Assembly (NCBI GenBank): GCA_024639325.1
Contig: JAHEIO010000025.1
Coordinates: 1-48,095 of the forward strand
Origin: Gammaproteobacteria bacterium
Lineage (GTDB): Bacteria; Pseudomonadota; Gammaproteobacteria; Arenicellales; JAANXG01
Reading direction: 5' to 3'
DNA length: 48,095 nt
Part shown: piece by piece, positions 2 through 12,398 of the stretch
How the letters are laid out: each line of letters opens with the position of its first letter
How positions within the stretch are numbered: position 1 is the stretch's first letter
Position numbers and translations under genes: made by a program
The notes under the pieces: model-generated
What the model was told of the DNA's origin: nothing
The model's database searches: none
Seen by the model: the letters and a program-made list of their open reading frames with translations, nothing else

Positions 2-382
2 ATGGGCATGCCGGGGATGGGCATGCCGGGGATGGGTTCGGGAAATCCGTTCGTTCCCATGACCAATCCAGGCAACTGGGTAAATCCCAACGCCTATGCA
101 CAGTTCATGCATCCCAACGCCTACATGTCAATGATGAACCCAATGTCCTACATGGCGTTTATGAATCCCGGCACCTACGGCGCCATGATGAATCCCGGTT
201 CGTATATGCAGTTCATGAATCCCTCCACTTACGGCCCCATGATGAATCCGAATACCTATCTTGCGATCATGACCCAGCTGCTGGGCATGACCCATGCCGG
301 TGATCAGAAGACCGCGGACAACTTCTGGGAGCAGTGGATGAAACTGGATAAGCAAGGCGGGCAGCGGGGTGCGCCACAATAG
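2..382 (+). CDS. Met/Asn/Pro/Tyr tandem-repeat protein, 5' end cut by window edge
   Basis: The reading frame is already open at the window edge, so the true N-terminus (and probably a signal peptide) is missing. The visible start is a run of MGMPG repeats. Residues 29-91 are seven perfectly phased 9-residue units of the form P-x-[AST]-Y-x-x-[FM]-M-[NH]. The C-terminal tail (THAGDQKTADNFWEQWMKLD) is not repetitive and resembles the end of the next gene's product. The downstream gene is a paralogue on the same strand 24 bp away, so the two are probably co-transcribed. I do not recognise a named family. The regular Tyr/Met spacing suggests a structural or metal-binding envelope protein, but that is inference. 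Confidence 0.8.
   Translation: MGMPGMGMPGMGSGNPFVPMTNPGNWVNPNAYAQFMHPNAYMSMMNPMSYMAFMNPGTYGAMMNPGSYMQFMNPSTYGPMMNPNTYLAIMTQLLGMTHAGDQKTADNFWEQWMKLDKQGGQRGAPQ
86..274 (+). repeat. Seven tandem 27-bp coding repeats
   Basis: Seven in-frame 27-bp units with no indels encode the P-x-x-Y-x-x-M-M-N repeat. The DNA copies have diverged at third positions while the Pro, Tyr, Met and Asn codons are kept. This points to selection on the protein pattern, not a very recent DNA expansion. Confidence 0.85.
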
Positions 383-406
383 ACCGACAAACTCGATGAG
401 GTAGAA

Positions 407-829
407 ATGATGAAAACCAACCTGATTTCCAACCTGCTCTGCGCTGTCTTGTTGTTGTTTTCGGTACAAGGTGTCGCCCAGGAAACCACCGCCACCGATC
501 CCCTGTCCTATTCCCTGAGCCACAGCGTCGATCCCCAGGTGTATTCCAATCTAATGAGCCAGATGATGACCAATCCCTATGGGGTCATGTTGAACCCGTT
601 CAGTACCTGCGCTCAGTGTCACAACGCGGAGGACATGGATCGCTACAACACTACGCTGGGCCCGATGCTCATGATGATCAATCCGGCCAACTGGATGAAT
701 CCGCAGGCGTACACGAAGATGATGACCGCGCCCATGGATCCCGCTGCGTACACGAACTGGTACGAGAGCTGGATGGAGAAATACGGTTCGATGTTTGGTC
801 AGCCGGCCCAGACTGAGCAACAACAATAA
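407..829 (+). CDS. Secreted NPxxY-repeat protein with one c-type haem motif
   Basis: This 140-residue protein has a clear signal peptide (MMKTNLISNLLCAVLLLFSV, cleaved near GVAQE). A single CAQCH motif at about residues 67-71 matches the CxxCH attachment site of c-type cytochromes. On both sides lie Met-rich segments related to the preceding gene (NPYGVMLNP, NPANWMNPQAY, DPAAYTNWYESW). A GAGG ribosome-binding site lies 5-8 bases before the double ATG. The protein is too short for a normal cytochrome c fold outside the motif, and the axial ligand could be one of many Met residues. Function is unknown; a periplasmic haem protein or a metal-binding partner of its paralogue is possible. The gene is followed 74 bp later by the DUF302 gene. 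Confidence 0.82.
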   Translation: MMKTNLISNLLCAVLLLFSVQGVAQETTATDPLSYSLSHSVDPQVYSNLMSQMMTNPYGVMLNPFSTCAQCHNAEDMDRYNTTLGPMLMMINPANWMNPQAYTKMMTAPMDPAAYTNWYESWMEKYGSMFGQPAQTEQQQ

Positions 830-903
830 GACTCGCGTCAGGATGTGGACCCGTGCACCGGGTAGACATCGAATAAAACACAAACTTTAATAACTCCAGA
901 ACC

Positions 904-1653
904 ATGATAAGCCAGTCCATACTTAGAAATTTGCAATGGCGTCTCCTGATCCTGATCCTGTTCTCGACCTCCACTGCGATCGCACAGCAGACCAGTCCGC
1001 AGGCAACGACGGATCTACCACCCCACATCCAGGAGGAACTGACGCCAAAGCCCGAACTTGGTCCCCGGTTGATGGATGTCCTTTCGGAAGAGGCCGAGGC
1101 GGTGCGCCGAAGGCAATTGCTCCAGAGCAGCAGACGGCCAATGCCGATTATCCCGCGGGAGCTGAAGCAGCACATGTTCAACATGATGGCCTCGGTAAGC
1201 GGCATGTCGATGCGTGAGCTGTTCAACTTCATGTCGCACAAAATGAAGGTGAACGAGGGAGTCGCGTTCGACGAAGTCATCGAATCGATGGAGATCAAGG
1301 CCAACGAGGTAAACTTCAAGAAAACCGGGCACAGCATGATCTGGCAGGATATCGGTGCGATCAGCGGTCTGCCCACCCTGCGCCTGGAGATCCTGCATTT
1401 TTGCGATGCGATCGTGGGCCGCCGCATGCTGGACTACAGTCCGGAGTTTTCCGTATTCATACCCTGCCGAATCTCGGTCATGGAAGACGCGACAGGCGAA
1501 ATCTGGATCATGACGCTGGACTGGGACGTGTCCTGGATGGCCATGGCCTGGCATCCTGAGTCGCAGCTGCCGGAAGACCTGAAGCAAGATGCAAGACGCA
1601 TTCGCGACGCAATGGACGATATCATGCGTGCGGGCGCCACCGGCGAGTGGTAG
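904..1653 (+). CDS. Secreted DUF302-domain protein
   Basis: The 249-residue product starts with a hydrophobic signal segment (RLLILILFSTSTAIA). It ends in a domain resembling DUF302 (about residues 105-215), seen in stretches such as GVAFDEVIESMEIKANEVNF, LEILHFCDA and FIPCRISVMEDATGEIWI. DUF302 proteins have no settled biochemical role; they recur near sulfur-oxidation and redox genes. Residues 30-100 are charged and probably helical. No strong Shine-Dalgarno precedes the ATG. The gene follows two Met-rich repeat proteins on the same strand and probably shares their operon, so all three may act together in the periplasm. Confidence 0.75.
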   Translation: MISQSILRNLQWRLLILILFSTSTAIAQQTSPQATTDLPPHIQEELTPKPELGPRLMDVLSEEAEAVRRRQLLQSSRRPMPIIPRELKQHMFNMMASVSGMSMRELFNFMSHKMKVNEGVAFDEVIESMEIKANEVNFKKTGHSMIWQDIGAISGLPTLRLEILHFCDAIVGRRMLDYSPEFSVFIPCRISVMEDATGEIWIMTLDWDVSWMAMAWHPESQLPEDLKQDARRIRDAMDDIMRAGATGEW

Positions 1654-1702: not shown

Positions 1703-1775
1703 TCGGCGCGAGGAGCGCCTCCTACGAGTTAACCGAGATAGTAGCAATGTCGTAGGAGCGGCGCCCCGCCGCGAT
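1703..1775. repeat. REP-pair (REPIN-like) palindromic repeat
   Basis: Two inverted GC-rich palindromes (GGAGCGCCTCCTACGAG and CGTAGGAGCGGCGCCCCGC) are separated by about 25 bp. The second half recurs at 8007-8030 and, in reverse complement, inside the MITE-like element near 3164-3190. This is the usual look of gammaproteobacterial REP sequences. No RAYT (REP-associated transposase) gene is in the window. Confidence 0.7.
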
Positions 1776-1834
1776 CAAGTGGCGGGAGTTTTAATCACCG
1801 GGGTGAGTGAGACCAAGAAGGGGAACCAAACATC

Positions 1835-2963: not shown

Positions 2964-3238
2964 CTAGCCCGCATATTGCACCCGACCGGCCGTGATTGTT
3001 TTCTATGCCCTTGATCCATTTTCACCAATACACCGATTGGGATAGATTGATCCAAAGGACGGTTTGTCATCGGGGTCGGCCTATCCCGGTGCTGACTTGT
3101 CCAGCTTCGCCTGGGCTTGGTCTTCACTCGGACCGTAGCGACGGCTACGCTCCTCGCGCCGGTTCATCGCGGCGGGGGCGCCGCTCCTACAAAACCCGAC
3201 GCGGCGTCATCGCTCGCGATACGGGTGCAATATGCGGG
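2964..3238. mobile_element. MITE-like element, copy A
   Basis: About 275 bp of non-coding DNA bounded by inverted repeats: CTAGCCCGCATATTGCACC at the left and GGTGCAATATGCGGG at the right. The interior shares blocks with copy B at 35484-35733 (around TCTTCACTCGGACCGTAGC and TCATCGCTCG) and also holds a REP half-site. The right end abuts the stop codon of the tctA-like gene. The terminal CTAG is intact only on the left. With no transposase it would need one in trans. It fills most of the 385-bp gap between the GST and tctA-like genes. Confidence 0.8.
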
Positions 3239-3241
3239 CCG

Positions 3242-4735
3242 TCAGTGGTGATGTTTCTTGAAAAAAGCGGTGTAGGCGCTGCCTAGCGTGGTGAGGACAC
3301 CCGCAATGAGCAGCGTCAGGGCAATGGGACGATCGAAAAAGCCCAACCACTCGAAATGCAGCATCTGCATGGCCTGTGCAAAGGTCTGTTCACCGATCTT
3401 TCCCAGGATCAGGCCCAGCACGATGCCTGCGACGGAATATCCAGAGCGCCGCAGGAAAAATCCCATTGCGCCGGCCACGAACATGACGACCACGTCGATA
3501 ACCAGACCCCGGACAGCGTAAGCTCCGACGGTGGCCAGGAGCAGTATCATCGGCGCCAGGAACTGGAACGGAATGCGCAGCAGATTGATGATGGTCTTGG
3601 TTTCCAGGACACCGATGAACAGTATCGACAGGTTGGCGAAAAACATCGCGGCGAACACCACCCACACGAGATCCGGACTGTTGATGAACACCAGCGGGCC
3701 CGGCTCCATGTCATGCATCTGGAACACGCCGACCATCATTGCCGTCAGCGCGCCGCCGGGCAGGCCCAGCGCGAGCAGCGGGATCATGGCGGCGCCCGTG
3801 GCCGCATTGTTGGCTGTTTCCGACGAGATGACGCCCTCCAGCTTGCCCTTGCCGAACGCCTTACGGTCCTTCGACCAGCGCACCGCCTCGTTGTATCCCA
3901 TAAACGCGGCGAGTGTTGCCCCGATTCCGGGCAGAATACCGCAGAAAAACCCGATGACGATGGATCGAAGCACCGCGATCTTGTGTGCAATCAATTCGGA
4001 GAGGCTGGGGAAATCGACGTGCAGCTCGGGAGCCTCGTAGACGCCGGTCACCTTCTTTTCCGCCTGTACGAAGATCTCCGACACGGCGAAAAATCCCAGG
4101 ATGGTTGGAATGAAGTGAATGCCCGCGAGCAGATACGGCATGCCGAAATCGTAGCGTGCGATGCCCCCGACCGGGTCGAGCCCGACCACGGCAATCATCA
4201 AGCCAGCAAGTATCGACAACCAGCCCTTCCACAGGGTCTTCGCTCCAACCGAGGCCGCCACCGCCAGGCCAAAGAACACCAGGGCGAATATCTCGGGAGG
4301 CCCGAATGCCGAGATGGCCCAATCCGCGATGGGCGCCGTCGCCGCCATCATAATGACGGCCGATATGGTACCCCCCAGAGCCGAGCACATTACCGCGGCA
4401 CCGACGGCTTTTCCGGCCTGGCCATTTAGGGTCATCGGGTACCCGTCGAAAGCGGTGGGCGCATTCTCCGGCGCGCCTGGAATATTGAACAGGATAGCGG
4501 TGATCGCGCCGCCGTAGACACCGGTGCAGTAAATCACCGAAAAGAGCATGATGCCGTGCTCTGCGGACAGATGCGCGGTGAACGGCAAAAGAATTGCGGC
4601 CAGAGTCAGCATGCTCACGCCGGGTATGGCACCGAACAGCATGCCGCCGATCACCCCGCCCAGAAAGATCAAAATCCCGACGGGGTCGCTGAACAGGGCG
4701 ATCGTGCCGTTCAGAAAGTTGGTGAATGCGTCCAC
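3242..4735 (-). CDS. tctA: Tripartite tricarboxylate transporter, large permease (TctA)
   Basis: The 497-residue, very hydrophobic protein has about 10-12 membrane spans and the glycine-rich TctA signatures (FGAIPGVSMLTLAAILLPFT, CGILPGIGATLAAFMGY, LPGGALTAMM). Length is normal for the family. In TTT systems TctA is the large membrane channel and works with TctB and the periplasmic binder TctC, all encoded just upstream here. Substrates of the class include citrate, dicarboxylates, aromatic acids and sulfonates. The gene starts 7 bp after the tctB stop. Its 3' end lies against MITE copy A. Confidence 0.92.
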   Translation of the reverse strand: MDAFTNFLNGTIALFSDPVGILIFLGGVIGGMLFGAIPGVSMLTLAAILLPFTAHLSAEHGIMLFSVIYCTGVYGGAITAILFNIPGAPENAPTAFDGYPMTLNGQAGKAVGAAVMCSALGGTISAVIMMAATAPIADWAISAFGPPEIFALVFFGLAVAASVGAKTLWKGWLSILAGLMIAVVGLDPVGGIARYDFGMPYLLAGIHFIPTILGFFAVSEIFVQAEKKVTGVYEAPELHVDFPSLSELIAHKIAVLRSIVIGFFCGILPGIGATLAAFMGYNEAVRWSKDRKAFGKGKLEGVISSETANNAATGAAMIPLLALGLPGGALTAMMVGVFQMHDMEPGPLVFINSPDLVWVVFAAMFFANLSILFIGVLETKTIINLLRIPFQFLAPMILLLATVGAYAVRGLVIDVVVMFVAGAMGFFLRRSGYSVAGIVLGLILGKIGEQTFAQAMQMLHFEWLGFFDRPIALTLLIAGVLTTLGSAYTAFFKKHHH

Positions 4736-4742
4736 TCGCGCC

Positions 4743-5456
4743 CTACTGGATCAGCGTCACCAGCCAGTGGCTGAAATCATAGAAGGGGTGCACGTTCCCC
4801 GTGGGCAGGCCCACGTACAGCACGCTCACGAACAAAAAAAGTAGGATGCCCATAATCAGGGCCGCTACGATGGCCATCCACTTAGGCCTTCGCTCGCCCA
4901 TGAGGAACATCACGCCGACGATGAACAGCGGCGCGGTGGCGTAGAAACCCATGTCCTCGAGGAGGGCCGCGAAAAAGATCGGCAGGGCCAGTATGCCCCC
5001 GACATGGTTGCGCCACGTCAATGCGAGATAAACGAGAATCAGCACCGCGGCACATATTAGTTTTGCCGCATGCAGCCCGCCATCGTCCAGCGCAAATACT
5101 TCGGCCGCCCAGCCGGGCACACGCATGTAGGCAAACGGAATGACCAGTAGCGTGAGCGTGGACACATACCAGCGCAAGCTCGTGTGCCCGGTCCTCCGAG
5201 CCGCTTCCTCGGACCCGTCGTCGGAGGCCGCGCCCAGCGTACCCGAGGTCGCTTCGTCTCCGTCTTTCCAGTGATAGAGCAGTTGGCCCAGCGCCGCCAC
5301 CACCATCAACAGAATGATCGCCCGGGGCCATGCCGTGGCACCGAACTTGTAAATCTCGATGTTCCGCTCGAAGTCGAACGAATAAACATAGAGAACGGCA
5401 GCGAGCGCCAACCACAGGCCGACCTCGATGAAATGGCCGGGGCGCAGCTTACCCAT
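4743..5456 (-). CDS. tctB: Tripartite tricarboxylate transporter, small permease (TctB)
   Basis: The 237-residue protein has four or five predicted membrane helices (GLWLALAAVLYVYSF, AIILLMVVAALGQLLY, ALIMGILLFLFVSVLYVGLP). The loop of charged and small residues after the second helix is typical of the small DUF1468/TctB subunit but somewhat long here. It would pair with TctA in the inner membrane. It lies between tctC, from which it is separated by a strong hairpin, and tctA. Confidence 0.87.
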   Translation of the reverse strand: MGKLRPGHFIEVGLWLALAAVLYVYSFDFERNIEIYKFGATAWPRAIILLMVVAALGQLLYHWKDGDEATSGTLGAASDDGSEEAARRTGHTSLRWYVSTLTLLVIPFAYMRVPGWAAEVFALDDGGLHAAKLICAAVLILVYLALTWRNHVGGILALPIFFAALLEDMGFYATAPLFIVGVMFLMGERRPKWMAIVAALIMGILLFLFVSVLYVGLPTGNVHPFYDFSHWLVTLIQ

Positions 5457-5493
5457 GGGAGCCCGTCATACGATAGCTGCTCGCATGTGATCA

Positions 5494-5516
5494 GGCCCCG
5501 GTGGCTCGCCGGGGCC
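5494..5516 (-). terminator. Intercistronic hairpin between tctC and tctB
   Basis: Perfect 8-bp inverted repeat (GGCCCCGG, 7-base loop, CCGGGGCC) just after the tctC stop. No T tract follows on the minus strand, so it is probably not a full terminator. Hairpins here commonly protect the binding-protein message and lower permease expression; that role is inferred. Confidence 0.6.
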
Positions 5517-5534
5517 CGTCATGACGTGAGAGGA

Positions 5535-6563
5535 CTATTTGACCTCCAGCCCCATTTCCTTGTAAACATCCCGGTATTGCGAAATGGTGGAGGTAATGAG
5601 TTCCCTCGCCCCATCGGTATCCCGGAAGCTTTCGATCAGCGTCATGAACTTGCCTTCGTTGTAGTCCTGATAGCTTTTCTCGCAATACGCCTTCTGGAAG
5701 GCCCATTGCAGCCACTTGACCCGATCTTCCGGCGCGCCGGCGTGCGCGTAGAAACCGCGGAATCTGAACAGGGGTTCGAATTCCAGACCAACATCGGCGA
5801 GGCTCGGCACATCCGCAAATGCGGCGGGCGCCTCCTTCAGGATGGTGAGGATCGGCTTGAATTTTCCGGCGTCGAGAAATGAACGCACGTCGCCCGGCTG
5901 CTCGAACAGCGCATCGACCTGGCCACCGGCCAGCGCACCGTAGCGTGGGGCTCCCTTGTCGAAAGAAATCTGCTGGATCTTCATGCCGGTCGCATCCGTG
6001 ATGAACTTCATGGTGACGCGTTCCATCGAGCCTTCCTTGGAGACATTGGCGATGGTCGCCTTGCCGTCCTGTGCATTCACCCATTCGACAAATGAGTTCC
6101 AGTCGGTGAATCGATCTTCATCAGTGCGGATATAGATCTGTGAAAAGGTTATCTGCGAGATCACCAGCGGAATGAGATCCTTGGCGGGATTGGGCCGGGT
6201 CGAATCCAGCGCGTGGGCACTGGACGCATCGTCGATGTGCTCGAGTACGGTGTAGCCGTCCGCCGGGGTCGCCATGAAAGCGGTCATGCCCACGGTACCG
6301 GATCCACCGGGTTTGTGGTCCCGGTTTATCGAGACCCCGGTCAATTCGGTTACCGCCTGCGCCATGGCCTGGGCAACCTGACCGGAGCCCCCGGCGGGAC
6401 CATAGGGTACGATCATGGTCAGCGCGCGCTCCGGGAAGCCGCCCGGCATCTCCATGGAAGCGGGCAGCCCGTCGGTTGCGCAAGCCGCCATGGCGACACT
6501 TGCGGAAAACGCCATCGCGGCAACCGTGGTTCCGGTCGATGCAAGATATTTCTTATAATTCAT
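5535..6563 (-). CDS. tctC: TTT-system periplasmic solute-binding protein (TctC/Bug family)
   Basis: The 342-residue product has a signal peptide (MNYKKYLASTGTTVAAMAFS, cut after about SVAMA) and the Bug-family opening FPERALTMIVPYGPAGGSGQ. The domain end VSKEGSMERVTMKFI also fits. I chose the ATG at 6563 because AGGAGG lies 6-7 bases upstream and the signal peptide starts there; the open frame extends 55 codons further up without signal-peptide character. It should capture the substrate for TctAB. The substrate cannot be deduced from sequence, but the neighbouring aconitase X and CoA ligase genes suggest a carboxylated compound. Confidence 0.92.
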   Translation of the reverse strand: MNYKKYLASTGTTVAAMAFSASVAMAACATDGLPASMEMPGGFPERALTMIVPYGPAGGSGQVAQAMAQAVTELTGVSINRDHKPGGSGTVGMTAFMATPADGYTVLEHIDDASSAHALDSTRPNPAKDLIPLVISQITFSQIYIRTDEDRFTDWNSFVEWVNAQDGKATIANVSKEGSMERVTMKFITDATGMKIQQISFDKGAPRYGALAGGQVDALFEQPGDVRSFLDAGKFKPILTILKEAPAAFADVPSLADVGLEFEPLFRFRGFYAHAGAPEDRVKWLQWAFQKAYCEKSYQDYNEGKFMTLIESFRDTDGARELITSTISQYRDVYKEMGLEVK

Positions 6564-6696
6564 CTGGCCCTCCTGAGGTGAATTGTGACCGCTATCGTTT
6601 GGGTCATCAAAAAAATGGTATCCCAGCGCCCCGGGGGTGTCAAAGCAGGGGATATCGAAACCAAGGAATACAGCGGGCACGCGCCTCTTGCCAGTT

Positions 6697-7452
6697 TCAG
6701 GTAAATGCCCGCCACAGCATGGTTCCACCGGAGGCCATGAGGACGACCAGTATCAGGCGATTGAAGCGCTGGTCGCTAACACGGCCGCGCAGCCGTCGCC
6801 CGATGGCCAACCCGGCCGCGACCGGAACTGTGGCCGCCGCGGACATCAGCGCCAGAGGAACATCGAGGATCCCGAACCACAAGAGGATGATCGTCCACGG
6901 CACCACGCATGCCAGATAAAGAAAGCTGATCGAGGCGACGAAGCGCTCCTTGTCCAAATTCCTGATCGAGACCAGATAGATGATCAGCATCGGTCCAAAC
7001 ATTGACGACAAACCGCCGATCACGCCGCTGGCCAATCCGAAAACCACTCCGGCCGGCTTTTCCAGCGCCGCCGGCAGGTGCAGCTTGTAAGTCGAAGCCT
7101 GCAGCAGCGTAAACGCGATGACTACGAAGCCAACGAACAACAGCAACGATCGTTCATCAATGGCGGACAGGATCGCGACGCCGGCGTAGGTTCCGAACAA
7201 TATTGCAACAAAGGCCGGCCAGAATCGGCCCACGACCGTCCCGATCTGTTTTGCCTGTAAGGCCTGCCAGACGTTTGCGACAACCACCGGGATTGCCATC
7301 AGCGCGACGGCCGTTTGCACCGGTAGGACCAGCGCCATCAAGGGCACCGTGAGCAAAGGCGTGCCGACTCCCAGCGTTCCCTTGATCAGCCCGCCGCAAA
7401 ACAAGGCAAAACTGCACCAGGCAATGATCAGGGGATCGTACTCACTCAACAC
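6697..7452 (-). CDS. TauE/SafE-family membrane exporter
   Basis: The 251-residue protein has about eight membrane spans and family signatures (CGGLIKGTLGVGTPLLTVPLM, GLASGVIGGLSSMFGPMLIIYL). TauE/SafE proteins export sulfite, sulfoacetate or related anions, and several are found in sulfonate-degradation operons. It is 22 bp downstream of the aconitase X small-subunit gene and 134 bp upstream of tctC on the same strand. That position supports a role in removing a sulfur anion released by the pathway, but some family members are unrelated to sulfur. Confidence 0.88.
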   Translation of the reverse strand: MLSEYDPLIIAWCSFALFCGGLIKGTLGVGTPLLTVPLMALVLPVQTAVALMAIPVVVANVWQALQAKQIGTVVGRFWPAFVAILFGTYAGVAILSAIDERSLLLFVGFVVIAFTLLQASTYKLHLPAALEKPAGVVFGLASGVIGGLSSMFGPMLIIYLVSIRNLDKERFVASISFLYLACVVPWTIILLWFGILDVPLALMSAAATVPVAAGLAIGRRLRGRVSDQRFNRLILVVLMASGGTMLWRAFT

Positions 7453-7474
7453 GGTTTCACCGGTCGCACGCCGT

Positions 7475-7888
7475 TCAACGCATGACCGTGACCCGGCCCG
7501 CCTCCGGATCGACAGCCACGCGGTCCCCGGTCCTTACAAACGAGGTGATATCGCCATCGAATCGATCCATGAAGCAGAGGCCCGCAAACGCGGCACCCTG
7601 GGCCATGATTGGATTGGAAATGTTCAGCAGCAGCGCCGCCGGCGCCATCCCGCGGGACTTCATCTCTCGCAGCATCCAGGAGGTGGCAACGCCGCCCTTG
7701 GCGGTATTGAGGACGAGAATTCGCCCGACATAGTTTTCGCCGAACAGCGCGTGCGCCGGACGTGAAAACACGCCATTGACGCGATCGAGATCATACCGGG
7801 CGCTGAAGTTATCTTCGGCTACCAGTGCAATACCGGTGACGGATTCACCGATGCCCCGGTGACCCTTGATGGTGGTTTGTTCGGTCAT
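7475..7888 (-). CDS. Aconitase X small (swivel, DUF126) subunit
   Basis: The 137-residue protein matches the AcnX swivel domain: GRILVLNTAKGG, LREMKSRGMAPAALLLNISN, IMAQGAAFAGL and a C-terminal GDRVAVDPEAGRVTV. AcnX enzymes are iron-sulfur dehydratases; known activities include cis-3-hydroxyproline and phosphomevalonate dehydration. At the position where several AcnX members have a KGSS-type serine motif this protein has KGGVATS. This may mark a different substrate subgroup, though I recall that motif from memory only. The partner large subunit is encoded 159 bp upstream, across a REP pair. Confidence 0.85.
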   Translation of the reverse strand: MTEQTTIKGHRGIGESVTGIALVAEDNFSARYDLDRVNGVFSRPAHALFGENYVGRILVLNTAKGGVATSWMLREMKSRGMAPAALLLNISNPIMAQGAAFAGLCFMDRFDGDITSFVRTGDRVAVDPEAGRVTVMR

Positions 7889-7956
7889 GGGTGTGTCTCT
7901 CGGTCAACGTCGTCATTACAACTTCACGTCTATATTAATGGACATGCCGCTCGCAG

Positions 7957-8031
7957 GCGGCGCGAGGCGCGCCTCCTGCAAAGCGGCCGAGTGATCGCGC
8001 CAACGATGCGGGAGCGGCGCCCCGCGGCGAT
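7957..8031. repeat. REP-pair (REPIN-like) palindromic repeat
   Basis: Two inverted GC-rich halves (GCGAGGCGCGCCTCCTGCA and GCGGGAGCGGCGCCCCGCGG) match the pair at 1703-1775 in order and spacing. It lies in the 159-bp gap between the two aconitase X genes and might act as an mRNA hairpin between them. Confidence 0.7.
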
Positions 8032-8047
8032 GGAGTGCGCTTCATGA

Positions 8048-9295
8048 TTAGATTTTTCCGGCGACGGCGGCATCGACGCACTGCTCGGTGGTTGCCAGAA
8101 CGGGCACGTAGTCATATCCCTGAATGATGTTGACCAGCTTGGCCGAATTGCTAACCAGGGTCTTCCAGCGGTTGGCCCGCGCCGTTTCCTTTGCGTACAT
8201 CTGGTAGAAACAAACGCCTTCCAGCACAATCACCCCGGCTTCATCGAGTGCCACGGTAATGCCCATGCGGTCGCAACCCGCCTTGACCTCGGGTGCGGTG
8301 GCAATGACGAAGTCGGTGTCCCGGTGCACCCGTCTTCCTCTGATCAACGTTGCAATCATGTGCATTTCCAGGAGCGACAGCTGAGGGGCCGCCAGGACCA
8401 CCACATCCACCTTCCCCTTGTGGCGGCCCTGCTCGGAGTAGAAGTTTTTTATGTCCGCCGCGGTGATCCTCCCGCCGGGCAGTGACAGCAGACCGCCGGA
8501 AAGAACCCTACCGATGTCGGTTGCCTCGGGCGTCACACCGTCGATATGGAACAGCGGCACCGAACCATAGCTCGCCAGGGCGGCACCAAAATGTTTGAGC
8601 TGATCCGATGTCGGCGTTGACGTGATCCCGGTGAGCGCGGGTACGTTCCAGTAAGAACCGGTGCGCCGGCCGATGACCGCACCTAAGGCGCCCCAATCGG
8701 CCAGATCGCCGGGGGCGTAATCGACAGTGAACAAGTGCGTTGCCCGGCGATTTTTGCCCAGATGATAGCCATAACGAGGGGCCCTGCCGGTGAACGCCGC
8801 CGCCAGGGCCGCGGGGCCGCCCTCGAAATTGGATCGTGCACCGCAAACGCTGTTGGCGTAGATCACGGAGCCGGTATCCCCGAACGCGAGGTGCGCACCG
8901 AACACCGGGGCCTGAAAGATCTGGTAGTTGATACAGGTATTGGTCATCAGTATACCGAAGCTCTCGAACGCTGAAATCGCGCGCTGCTCGAGAAGCGCCC
9001 ACTCCTCATTCTGCTTGAGCGCGCGGTAGCGGCAAAGATCGATTCCGCGCGGATCGGTGATGGTTGGCACGCACACCGACCGCTCGAGGCGCGGGTAGCC
9101 GGCGAGCTCCTCCAGGTACCGCACCCCGGCCTCGCCGAGGGACTCGGTATCTGCCATCAGGTGGACCTGGCTGATTTCAACGAAATCAGCGGCATCAAAA
9201 AACCGCCCCACCTCGATCTGCTGTTGCAGAGCCTGTTGGCGCGGGTACCCGAAATCACCCGCGATCATGGATTCTTCGTATTTCGTCAGTTTCAT
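8048..9295 (-). CDS. Aconitase X large (catalytic, DUF521) subunit
   Basis: The 415-residue protein aligns with the AcnX catalytic domain from MKLTKYEESMIAGDFG onward: VEISQVHLMADTESLGEAG, TNTCINYQIFQAPVFG, GSVIYANSVCGARSNFEGG, and the C-terminal VKAGCDRMGITVAL. Cysteines in the NTC, SVCGA and AGC segments are the likely cluster ligands. I chose the ATG at 9295, which gives the normal family N-terminus; an upstream ATG at 9334 would add 13 residues. It forms a two-subunit dehydratase with the product of the next gene. The gene is divergent from the aldehyde dehydrogenase gene, so both probably share a control region at 9296-9399. Confidence 0.87.
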   Translation of the reverse strand: MKLTKYEESMIAGDFGYPRQQALQQQIEVGRFFDAADFVEISQVHLMADTESLGEAGVRYLEELAGYPRLERSVCVPTITDPRGIDLCRYRALKQNEEWALLEQRAISAFESFGILMTNTCINYQIFQAPVFGAHLAFGDTGSVIYANSVCGARSNFEGGPAALAAAFTGRAPRYGYHLGKNRRATHLFTVDYAPGDLADWGALGAVIGRRTGSYWNVPALTGITSTPTSDQLKHFGAALASYGSVPLFHIDGVTPEATDIGRVLSGGLLSLPGGRITAADIKNFYSEQGRHKGKVDVVVLAAPQLSLLEMHMIATLIRGRRVHRDTDFVIATAPEVKAGCDRMGITVALDEAGVIVLEGVCFYQMYAKETARANRWKTLVSNSAKLVNIIQGYDYVPVLATTEQCVDAAVAGKI

Positions 9296-9399
9296 CCGGA
9301 TCCAGTTTACCAAAACTGAAAACAACGATTTCACACGACTTGACGCGGTCAGAACAGGGGCTTAGTCTGCCGCGTCCTTACAGACTGCATCAAATCAAT
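9296..9399. promoter_or_regulatory. Divergent intergenic region of the catabolic locus
   Basis: About 100 bp separate the divergent start codons of the AcnX large subunit and the SauS-like gene. Both transcription units must start here or within the first codons. No regulator gene flanks it and I see no clear operator, so the controlling factor is probably encoded elsewhere. Confidence 0.45.
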
Positions 9400-10839
9400 A
9401 TGTCAAATCCGACACACAGTGCCGCCGGTGCCGGGACCCTCGACGACGAATCAACCCTGGTCGATCAGCTGGTATCACGCGGGCGCCGAGCCATGAAGGA
9501 GTTCCCCCGGGCTGAGCAGGGGCGAGTGGACGAGGTCGTGACGGCAATTGCGTGGTCGCTGTATCAACCCGAACGTGCCCGCCGACTGGCGGAGATTGCG
9601 GTTGCCGACACCGGGATCGGGAATGTACACGACAAGATTACCAAGAATCAGCGCAAGACCTTCGGCACTTTGCGCGATCTGATGCGTGTCCGCACGGTGG
9701 GAATCATCGAGAGCGACAGCGAGCGTGGTATCGTCAAGTACGGCAAGCCGGTAGGTGTGGTAGCGGCGATTACGCCCTCGACAAATCCTTCCGCCACACC
9801 CGTAAACAAGACCATGATGGCACTCAAGGGAGGCAACGCAATCATCATTGCGCCTTCTCCAAGCGGCTGGAACAGCACGAATGCTACGGTGGATATGATG
9901 AGGGAAGCTCTGCAAAGAGTGGAAGCGCCCGTGGACCTCGTTCAGATCCTGCCGCAGCCCGTTTCCCGTTCATTGACCCGTCTTCTAATGCAGAAGTGCG
10001 ATCTGGTCGTGGCTACCGGTTCGCAAAACAATGTCCGTGGAGCCTACAGCAGCGGCACTCCCGCTATCGGCGTCGGCGCCGGAAATGTTCCCGTGGTCAT
10101 CGACAGCAGCGCGGACCTGGACGATGCCGCTCAAAAAATTTGCGCCTCCAAGATCTTCGACAATTCCACTTCGTGTTCATCGGAAAACGCCCTGGTCATA
10201 CTCGACGATATCTACGAAGACGCCGTCGACGCGTTGAAGCGTGCCGGGGGATATTTGACCCATACCGACGAACGGGATCGAATAGCACGGCAACTCTGGA
10301 CCGACGGCAAGCTCAACCGCAATCTCATCGCGACCGACGCCGATGTGTTCGCCGGTAAAGTCGGGCTTGGCGACGGCTCGGGGTCCGCCAGGTTCTTCAT
10401 GGTGGAGGAAGAATCATTCGATCCGGAATCGTCCTTTGCCGACGAGAAACTATCCCTGGTGTTAACCGTGTATCGTGCGCGCGATTTCAGACACGCCGTT
10501 GAGCTGGTTGCCCGGATACTCGCTGTTCAGGGCCTCGGTCACTCCTGCGGAATTCACACCGCAAACATGGCGCATGCCCGAAAATTGGCGGAGGATATCG
10601 ACGTGGTGCGGGTGCTGGTCAATCAGGCGCACACTTTCGGCAACGGCGGCAGCTTCGACAACGCGTTAAATTTCACGCTGAGCATGGGCTGCGGCACATG
10701 GGGCGGCAACAGTATTTCAGAAAATCTCAACTATCGTCACTTCATCAACATCACCCATCTCGTCACGACTTTCGCTGAAGACAAGCCGACGGAAGAAGAT
10801 TTGTTCGGGGCGTATATCGCGAAGTACGGGCGCGATTGA
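9400..10839 (+). CDS. SauS-like acylating (CoA-dependent) aldehyde dehydrogenase
   Basis: The 479-residue protein belongs to the acylating aldehyde dehydrogenases. It closely resembles sulfoacetaldehyde dehydrogenase SauS as I remember it: KITKNQRKTFGTLRDL, PVGVVAAITPSTNPSATP, GVGAGNVPVVI, the catalytic-Cys motif STSCSSENALV (Cys259) and the long match NQAHTFGNGGSFDNALNF. SauS interconverts sulfoacetyl-CoA and sulfoacetaldehyde with NADP(H). I start at the ATG at 9400; a further in-frame ATG at 9340 adds 20 unconserved residues. The stop overlaps the start of the CoA ligase gene (TGATG), so the two are translationally coupled, as expected for consecutive steps. The aldehyde substrate could be a different small acid. 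Confidence 0.85.
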   Translation: MSNPTHSAAGAGTLDDESTLVDQLVSRGRRAMKEFPRAEQGRVDEVVTAIAWSLYQPERARRLAEIAVADTGIGNVHDKITKNQRKTFGTLRDLMRVRTVGIIESDSERGIVKYGKPVGVVAAITPSTNPSATPVNKTMMALKGGNAIIIAPSPSGWNSTNATVDMMREALQRVEAPVDLVQILPQPVSRSLTRLLMQKCDLVVATGSQNNVRGAYSSGTPAIGVGAGNVPVVIDSSADLDDAAQKICASKIFDNSTSCSSENALVILDDIYEDAVDALKRAGGYLTHTDERDRIARQLWTDGKLNRNLIATDADVFAGKVGLGDGSGSARFFMVEEESFDPESSFADEKLSLVLTVYRARDFRHAVELVARILAVQGLGHSCGIHTANMAHARKLAEDIDVVRVLVNQAHTFGNGGSFDNALNFTLSMGCGTWGGNSISENLNYRHFINITHLVTTFAEDKPTEEDLFGAYIAKYGRD

Positions 10840-12398
10840 TGGACACCGTCCGGCGGTACATCGACGCATTTGGTGCTGCTCGCGCGGATGACGTCTGGCT
10901 GATCGCACCGGAAACATCCGCCAGCTTCACCTACGCCGACCTCCGTCGAACAGCCCATCAGATCAAGCACCGGCTCGATGAAATGGGCGTCGCCAACGCA
11001 GCCAAGGTAGGCTTTCTTGCGGACAACGGGGGCTGGACCGCGCTGCTGTATCTTGGAGTAATGGCCGCCGGTCGCGTAATCGTACCCCTGAACGCCGTCG
11101 CCGGCGACGTGCAGCTGGCGCACGTGCTGAATCACTCCGATACCGGGATCGTCTTCGTTTCCCCGCACTACCGGGGCAAGCTCACCAAGCTGCTCGAGCA
11201 GATACCACGTGAAATCAACGTCATCGAACTCGACGCCTTGGACGGTCCGGTTTGGCACTCGGAATCACAAGACGGATCATCGCGGGATGCAGACAGGGGC
11301 CCGCAGCCGGAAGCTGACGATCCCGCGCTATTGCTCTACACATCCGGATCAACCGGACTGCCCAAAGGTGCGGTACTGAGCCACCGGGCCATCGTCAGCG
11401 GCGGACGTAACGTAGTCGAAGGACACCAGCTCAGCAGTGCTGATCGCGCACTGTGCGTGCTGCCGATCTATCACATCAACGGCGCGATGGTCACGGTCGC
11501 GGCACCGCTGATCAGCGGCGGCAGCGTGGTGATGCCGACCCGCTTCAGCGCCAGCACATTCTGGCCGCTGATCGCGGAGTACCGCTGCACCTGGGCTAGC
11601 ATCGTCCCGACCATCATCAAGTACCTTCTGGATCGCGCTGAGCAGGAGCCGTTCGATTTTGGCCGCGATGAGAGATTGCGCTGTTTTCGATTCGGGCGTT
11701 CCGCATCGGCACCGTTACCGGTTGCCGTGCTGGCTCAGTGGGAGAAGGTGTTCGGCGTGCCCATGATCGAGACCCTGGGCCTGACGGAAACCGCGGGAAC
11801 CGTGGCGACCAATCCTATGCCGCCCGGCAAGTGCAAACCCGGCTCCGTCGGTCTGGCGTTCGGCAATCAGATCAAGATCATCGATGAAAATGGGTGCGAA
11901 TGTCCGACCGGCGCTGCCGGGGAAATTGCCATTCGCGGCAACAACCTGCTCGATCACTACTACAAGAACCCTGAGGCCACAGCGGCGGCCTTCGTACAAG
12001 GTTGGTTCAGGACCGGTGATCTGGGCATGCTGGACGATGACGGCTACCTGTTCATCACGGGCCGCCTCAAGGAGCTGATCATCCGCGGCGGGGAAAACAT
12101 CGCACCCCGGGAGATCGACGATGTACTTTACAGGCACGATGCCGTCCTGGAAGCGGCTGCGGTCGGCGTGAATGATGAGAACTACGGTCAGGAAGTGGTG
12201 GCGTGCGTGGTCCGGCGGGAGGGATTCCGGTGCAGTGAACAGGAGCTCAAGACCCTGTGCGAAAATGCGGTCGGAAAATACAAGGCTCCGAAACGCATCT
12301 ATTTCATGAACGACCTCCCCAAGGGCCCGTCCGGAAAGATCCTGAGGTTGAAACTGCCGGAGCTGATCTCGTCGGGCGAATCACGCGAGGCGAAATGA
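10839..12398 (+). CDS. SauT-like AMP-forming acyl-CoA ligase
   Basis: The 519-residue protein has the ANL-superfamily motifs in order. The phosphate loop LLYTSGSTGLPKGAV lies near residue 165. LGLTETAG is in the middle, then FRTGDLGMLDDDGYLFITGR and the hinge KELIIRGGENIAPREID. The catalytic lysine is in GPSGKILR near residue 501. Such enzymes activate a carboxylic acid with ATP and CoA. Coupling to the SauS-like dehydrogenase parallels sauT-sauS of sulfoacetate degradation, where SauT makes sulfoacetyl-CoA. The ATG at 10839 overlaps the upstream stop; a TTG one codon earlier is less likely. The acid it activates is unproven. Confidence 0.85.
   Translation: MDTVRRYIDAFGAARADDVWLIAPETSASFTYADLRRTAHQIKHRLDEMGVANAAKVGFLADNGGWTALLYLGVMAAGRVIVPLNAVAGDVQLAHVLNHSDTGIVFVSPHYRGKLTKLLEQIPREINVIELDALDGPVWHSESQDGSSRDADRGPQPEADDPALLLYTSGSTGLPKGAVLSHRAIVSGGRNVVEGHQLSSADRALCVLPIYHINGAMVTVAAPLISGGSVVMPTRFSASTFWPLIAEYRCTWASIVPTIIKYLLDRAEQEPFDFGRDERLRCFRFGRSASAPLPVAVLAQWEKVFGVPMIETLGLTETAGTVATNPMPPGKCKPGSVGLAFGNQIKIIDENGCECPTGAAGEIAIRGNNLLDHYYKNPEATAAAFVQGWFRTGDLGMLDDDGYLFITGRLKELIIRGGENIAPREIDDVLYRHDAVLEAAAVGVNDENYGQEVVACVVRREGFRCSEQELKTLCENAVGKYKAPKRIYFMNDLPKGPSGKILRLKLPELISSGESREAK

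Follow-up and report, generated by a model that had tools for sequence, protein, structure and literature searches.

The first three genes of a 48,095-nucleotide gammaproteobacterial contig very probably belong to a sulfur-oxidation module, and we put at about even the chance, reasoning by analogy, that this module is a coat or scaffold for stored zero-valent sulfur, built on a previously undescribed family that resembles the sulfur globule proteins. The stretch analysed here (the window) is that complete contig (C11), from a 4.69 Mb draft genome that is 95.6% complete. Its first three plus-strand genes are tightly packed. They are the 3′ part of a gene for a protein of 9-residue repeats with Met and Tyr, here called MY (positions 2–382, 126 residues visible), a gene for an exported protein of 140 residues with one CAQCH c-type haem motif (407–829), and a gene for an exported DUF302 protein of 249 residues that falls in a distinct subfamily (904–1653). 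The first was delineated from its open reading frame, periodicity, dN/dS, family alignments and a structure model of a homologue, the second from its open reading frame, homologue alignments and dN/dS, and the third from its match to PF03625, a 10-member alignment and a search of relatives. Because the contig begins at base 1, the repeat gene is truncated at its 5′ end, and the ATG at position 2 is not its true start. Compared with the copies in a same-genus genome (G001), dN/dS is 0.08 for the repeat gene and 0.20 for the haem gene; this purifying selection supports both as real genes.

The rest of the window offers several observations of its own. A possible intrinsic terminator (1765–1786, plus strand) lies 110 bases 3′ of the DUF302 gene, a weak call at two such sites versus 1.2 expected by chance. 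A short element, GTAGGAGCGGCGCC..., is found as exact copies in opposite orientation in intergenic DNA at 1752–1765 (plus strand) and 3177–3190 (minus strand), and its four matches at two or fewer mismatches are above chance (0.5 expected). An acylating sulfoacetaldehyde dehydrogenase, SauS, is encoded at 9400–10839 on the plus strand (NF047625, 762.6 bits against a cut-off of 600), with an acyl-CoA-ligase-like gene directly 3′ of it (10839–12398, plus strand). Next to SauS on the opposite strand, at 3242–9334, we recognised by eye lookalikes of a tripartite tricarboxylate transporter, a TauE-like exporter and an aconitase-X pair. The SauS region may be a cluster for the use of organosulfonates (sulfoacetate).

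Clusters were found by searching relatives with the haem protein and then reading the loci. Across these relatives the trio, or two of its three members, lies among or next to soxXYZAB, dsrE2 and genes for sulfur transport and for flavocytochrome c sulfide dehydrogenase; the conserved neighbourhood, which the sequence-only reading had named in advance as a point on which it could fail, was thus found. In G018 (locus L015) the order is SoxX, SoxY, SoxZ, SoxA, thioredoxin-like, repeat, haem and DUF302, with the Sox calls over NCBIfam cut-offs and dsrA on the same contig 8 kb further on. G032 has SoxY, SoxZ, SoxA, repeat and haem genes and then the contig end, G017 has repeat, haem, DUF302 and repeat, and in G049 and G063 thioredoxin, repeat and DUF302 genes come after a sox cluster that includes SoxB (family tested in G049). 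Repeat proteins and DUF302 share one contig with sox genes in G046, G076 and G091. The association extends to genomes of other orders: repeat, DUF302 and haem genes beside SoxB in G312; DsrE2, DUF302 (with a Met-rich N-terminus), haem and Sulf_transp in G143 and G283 (families tested in the former, assigned by resemblance in the latter); and Sulf_transp, two repeat genes, haem, DUF302, SoxZ and SoxY in G113. Repeat proteins adjoin flavocytochrome c sulfide dehydrogenase in G003, and in G005 one DUF302 copy lies beside that enzyme and another by sirohaem synthase. Elsewhere in G018 (L177:7700–8813, on C14), a repeat gene stands between Calvin-cycle-like genes, which precede it, and a short DUF302-like gene; the contig also has sox genes and dsrA.

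We scored a fixed sample of 100 related genomes, counting dsrA, SoxY and SoxC when over cut-off. The repeat profile was found in 22 genomes, the DUF302 subfamily in 20, the haem protein in eight, dsrA in 56, SoxY in 58 and SoxC in eight. All 22 MY genomes have dsrA and MY is absent from all 44 genomes that lack dsrA (p = 3e-7), while MY and DUF302 occur together in 19 of the 22 MY genomes (p = 2e-16), kinship inflating the significance in both cases. All eight genomes with the haem protein have MY. A class-level sample of 369 genomes shows the same tendency (dsrA in 8/8 MY genomes versus 118 genomes overall; p = 9e-5, likewise inflated by kinship). Half of the MY genomes (11/22) belong to the host's family; in all, MY was seen in five families of the order (f1, f2, f6, f7 and f8) and in five elsewhere in the class (f26, f56, f99, f105 and f122). 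In a phylum-level sample of 279 genomes the host itself was the sole repeat match; the genomes listed in it are all of the same class, so that a wider spread is limited, not excluded. Dsr-type sulfur oxidation does not require MY, which is missing from 34 of the 56 dsrA-positive relatives.

The host genome encodes SoxX, SoxY, SoxA (L095), a sulfur-transport gene and DsrA, the last taken as the oxidative type from the sox context. A search for SoxC gave no match in this 95.6% complete genome. Absence of SoxCD together with dsrAB (rDsr plus Sox) goes with sulfur deposits (PMC2702494), and by that analogy the host's set of SoxXYA and DsrA without SoxC is the one seen in bacteria that deposit zero-valent sulfur. 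SoxC absence does not by itself set MY genomes apart (p = 0.68), since SoxC is rare across the whole set, and one DUF302/MY genome, G036, has SoxC.

The window's repeat protein has seven consecutive P-x-x-Y units (PNAYAQFMH, PNAYMSMMN, PMSYMAFMN, PGTYGAMMN, PGSYMQFMN, PSTYGPMMN and PNTYLAIMT), which take the form NPxxYxx(M/F/I)M and are followed by a LLGMTHAGDQKTADNFWEQW tail. None of 100,000 composition shuffles reached seven units, the maximum being two. The sequence-only reading had counted seven exact 9-residue units; the P-x-x-Y spacing is exact in all seven, but PxxYxxMMN is matched exactly in just three, positions five to nine being variable. A near-orthologue in a same-genus genome (L012:368–1120, apparently contig CAMYOI010000497.1 from an uncultured gammaproteobacterium) has about 250 residues, of which a signal peptide and extended Met-rich stretches precede the repeats; a tblastn-confirmed scan of genome contigs returned the near-orthologue L011 as its sole result. 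Homologues have up to 15 copies of the motif, genomes have up to five MY matches, and the host has two further repeat genes, on C253 and C306. At their N-termini, complete homologues show a short basic part, then a hydrophobic stretch and an A-x-A-like site, signal peptides having been judged by eye. MY proteins contain 1%–13% charged residues, are free of cysteine in 27 of 28 cases and have a slightly negative mean hydropathy (−0.02 to −0.66). Met makes up 15%–34% of several members and merely 3%–5% of several others, which retain Pro and Tyr, so Met is not a constant feature of the family.

No Pfam or NCBIfam model matches the repeat proteins. In a structure model of an MY homologue each unit is one 8-residue helix (pLDDT about 73–80), at a low overall pTM of 0.31; Foldseek gave no match to this model, and a PDB profile search with the repeat alignment returned nothing useful. 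The family was likewise undescribed in a literature search for Met-rich sulfur proteins, whose coverage left out most subscription journals. A second, related exported family has a CSTEPVMWDTW-type segment before NPxxYxxWM-like units (L180:3153–3869, L115:5088–5774, L166:632–1339 and L164:8123–8707); its members in L180 and L115 lie near repeat genes, and the L180 member is without a Pfam match.

The window's haem protein has a signal-peptide-like N-terminus, a single CAQCH, an NPANWMNPxAY segment and an MDPxxYxxWY tail, in agreement with the signal peptide and lone CxxCH of the sequence-only reading. The motif, on which that reading could likewise have failed, is conserved: C68, C71 and H72 are unchanged in all 12 homologues, drawn from several families and with signal-like N-termini. 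The mature part contains exactly two cysteines. The claim that the haem motif is set among the same repeats calls for correction, with no exact copy of the motif and two loose matches that form no periodic chain and are equalled by 45% of shuffles. To call the two proteins paralogues was an overstatement, as their match is weak (E = 0.1, 50% over 22 residues), though they have NPANWMNPxAY-type sequence in common and the MDPxxYxxWY tail is shared in other family members; within the window, paralogy is weakly supported.

No cytochrome c family scored over threshold for the haem protein. Its match to SoxX is sub-threshold (E = 0.04, 14.6 bits against a cut-off of 61), and Foldseek with a low-confidence model (pTM 0.33) gave six matches, none below E = 4. 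A PDB profile search with one haem alignment produced a weak match to the photosynthetic reaction centre cytochrome around one haem site (E = 0.05–0.2, below significance); that subunit has several haem sites as against one here, the match was gone with a smaller alignment and each stretch alone was chance-like, so that we keep it as a lead only. Matches to the Pfam families JmjN and DUF2206, far under cut-off, were rejected, as was a collagen match of one haem-protein member that is presumably due to an MPGMPGM stretch. In G004 the haem protein (L014:7370–8017) has a long MPGMPGM run fused at its N-terminus and no adjoining repeat or DUF302 genes.

The product of 904–1653 is a DUF302 protein, as had been proposed (PF03625, E = 1.1e-9, 38.4 bits against a Pfam gathering score of 23). 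Its subfamily, of about 240–420 residues, has an extra N-terminal region that is Met-rich in some genomes, and two cysteines, C167 and C188, are invariant in the 10-member alignment. In two DUF302 proteins (L113:8686–9783 and L114:10342–11598) a long MNPMMG-type Met-rich N-terminal extension places both parts in one protein. A PDB profile search with the DUF302 alignment returned nothing useful, and comparison with plasmids found distant DUF302 genes only. In Acidithiobacillia and Thiohalorhabdus, which have no soxCD, soxA and soxB are reported to flank a DUF302 gene, for which a part in trithionate oxidation was proposed (PMC5037610). The subfamily here is similarly sox-linked in bacteria without soxCD; the earlier protein is, however, shorter at 191 residues, and it is not reported with MY or haem partners.

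Sulfur globule proteins are exported and repetitive, with prolines at regular spacing, and number one to six per genome (PMC10386293). Judged from the description of SgpA/B/C/D in Allochromatium vinosum and relatives (PMC10386293), MY is alike in its export signal, repeats, regular prolines and multiple copies, and its host, like Sgp bacteria, has Dsr and Sox with SoxC not found. It differs in the 9-residue NPxxYxxMM repeat, the frequent position in sox clusters, the member with a haem motif and the accompanying DUF302 gene. We found no Pfam or NCBIfam model common to the two. Sgp are very hydrophobic in composition, and MY combines low charge with a slightly negative mean hydropathy. The haem protein, exported and with a single CxxCH, is comparable to SoxX, the small c-type cytochrome of Sox clusters, except that its CxxCH is flanked by MY-type motifs and the true SoxX is a separate gene of the host. 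By this descriptive resemblance, MY may work as sulfur globule proteins do.

Because the trio travels with sulfur-oxidation genes in probable sulfur-storing bacteria, because MY is exported, low in charge, cysteine-free and multi-copy, and because the CxxCH and the DUF302 cysteine pair are invariant, we read the module as a probable coat or scaffold for stored sulfur. With Sox lacking SoxC and with Dsr present, the sulfane sulfur of thiosulfate or sulfide would accumulate as zero-valent sulfur outside the cytoplasm, presumably in the periplasm, where exported MY proteins would line or nucleate it. Each 9-residue unit would fold into two helical turns with NP as the N-cap, and together the units would expose Tyr, Phe and Trp rings along with Met thioethers, giving an almost uncharged surface that could accommodate S8 or polysulfane. 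The haem protein shares the NPANWMNPxAY and MDPxxYxxWY elements and would therefore dock in the coat. What it and the DUF302 protein do there is speculation: the former, with haem attached, might pass electrons during sulfur deposition or remobilisation, and the latter, given its two invariant cysteines and the thioredoxin-family genes nearby in relatives, might pick up or release persulfide sulfur. That the coat is electroactive, the embedded haem protein wiring sulfur to the respiratory chain so that oxidation or activation happens at the coat and not only after import into the cytoplasm, seems to us improbable. The "matrix for redox chemistry" of the sequence-only reading comes close to our coat-or-scaffold reading, without the sox and dsr link.

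Three other functions were weighed. The first, which we regard as rather unlikely, is that MY forms a matrix at the cell surface or outside the cell, serving to anchor cells to external sulfur or to export sulfur, instead of coating internal globules. Some dsrAB bacteria do deposit sulfur outside the cell (PMC2702494), and TolC- and/or HlyD-like genes are near the module in G017, G046, G076 and G091; however, we recognised none adjoining the module in G018, G049 or the window, the N-termini resemble ordinary Sec signals, and the sequences read contain no surface anchor. The genes directly adjoin soxXYZAB in G018, G032, G049 and G063, as would suit proteins that assist the Sox enzymes structurally or as chaperones; on this reading MY would hold SoxYZ and SoxAX, or the DUF302 protein, together without bulk sulfur and the haem protein could accept electrons from SoxAX. 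We consider this unlikely, as many of the up to five MY matches per genome are distant from sox, including some beside sulfide dehydrogenase, and 39 of the 58 SoxY-positive genomes lack MY. Met-rich stretches of known periplasmic copper proteins bind Cu(I), and the Met-richest MY members would suit a sulfur-independent copper (or haem) scaffold whose haem protein handles electrons, yet this metal- or haem-handling role, proposed from sequence, is very unlikely given the members with little Met, the dsrA in every MY genome of two samples, and neighbours examined that point to sulfur oxidation (sox, dsrE2, Sulf_transp and flavocytochrome c), with no metal transport or metal resistance genes identified among them.

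The enclosure of stored sulfur and its re-mobilisation across the periplasm have long been poorly understood, and the coat proteins known so far come from few lineages. If MY proteins do coat stored sulfur, their presence in ten bacterial families here would provide gene targets, and their sequence could flag uncultured bacteria as probable sulfur storers. The DUF302 proteins of sox loci would, in turn, gain a testable context.
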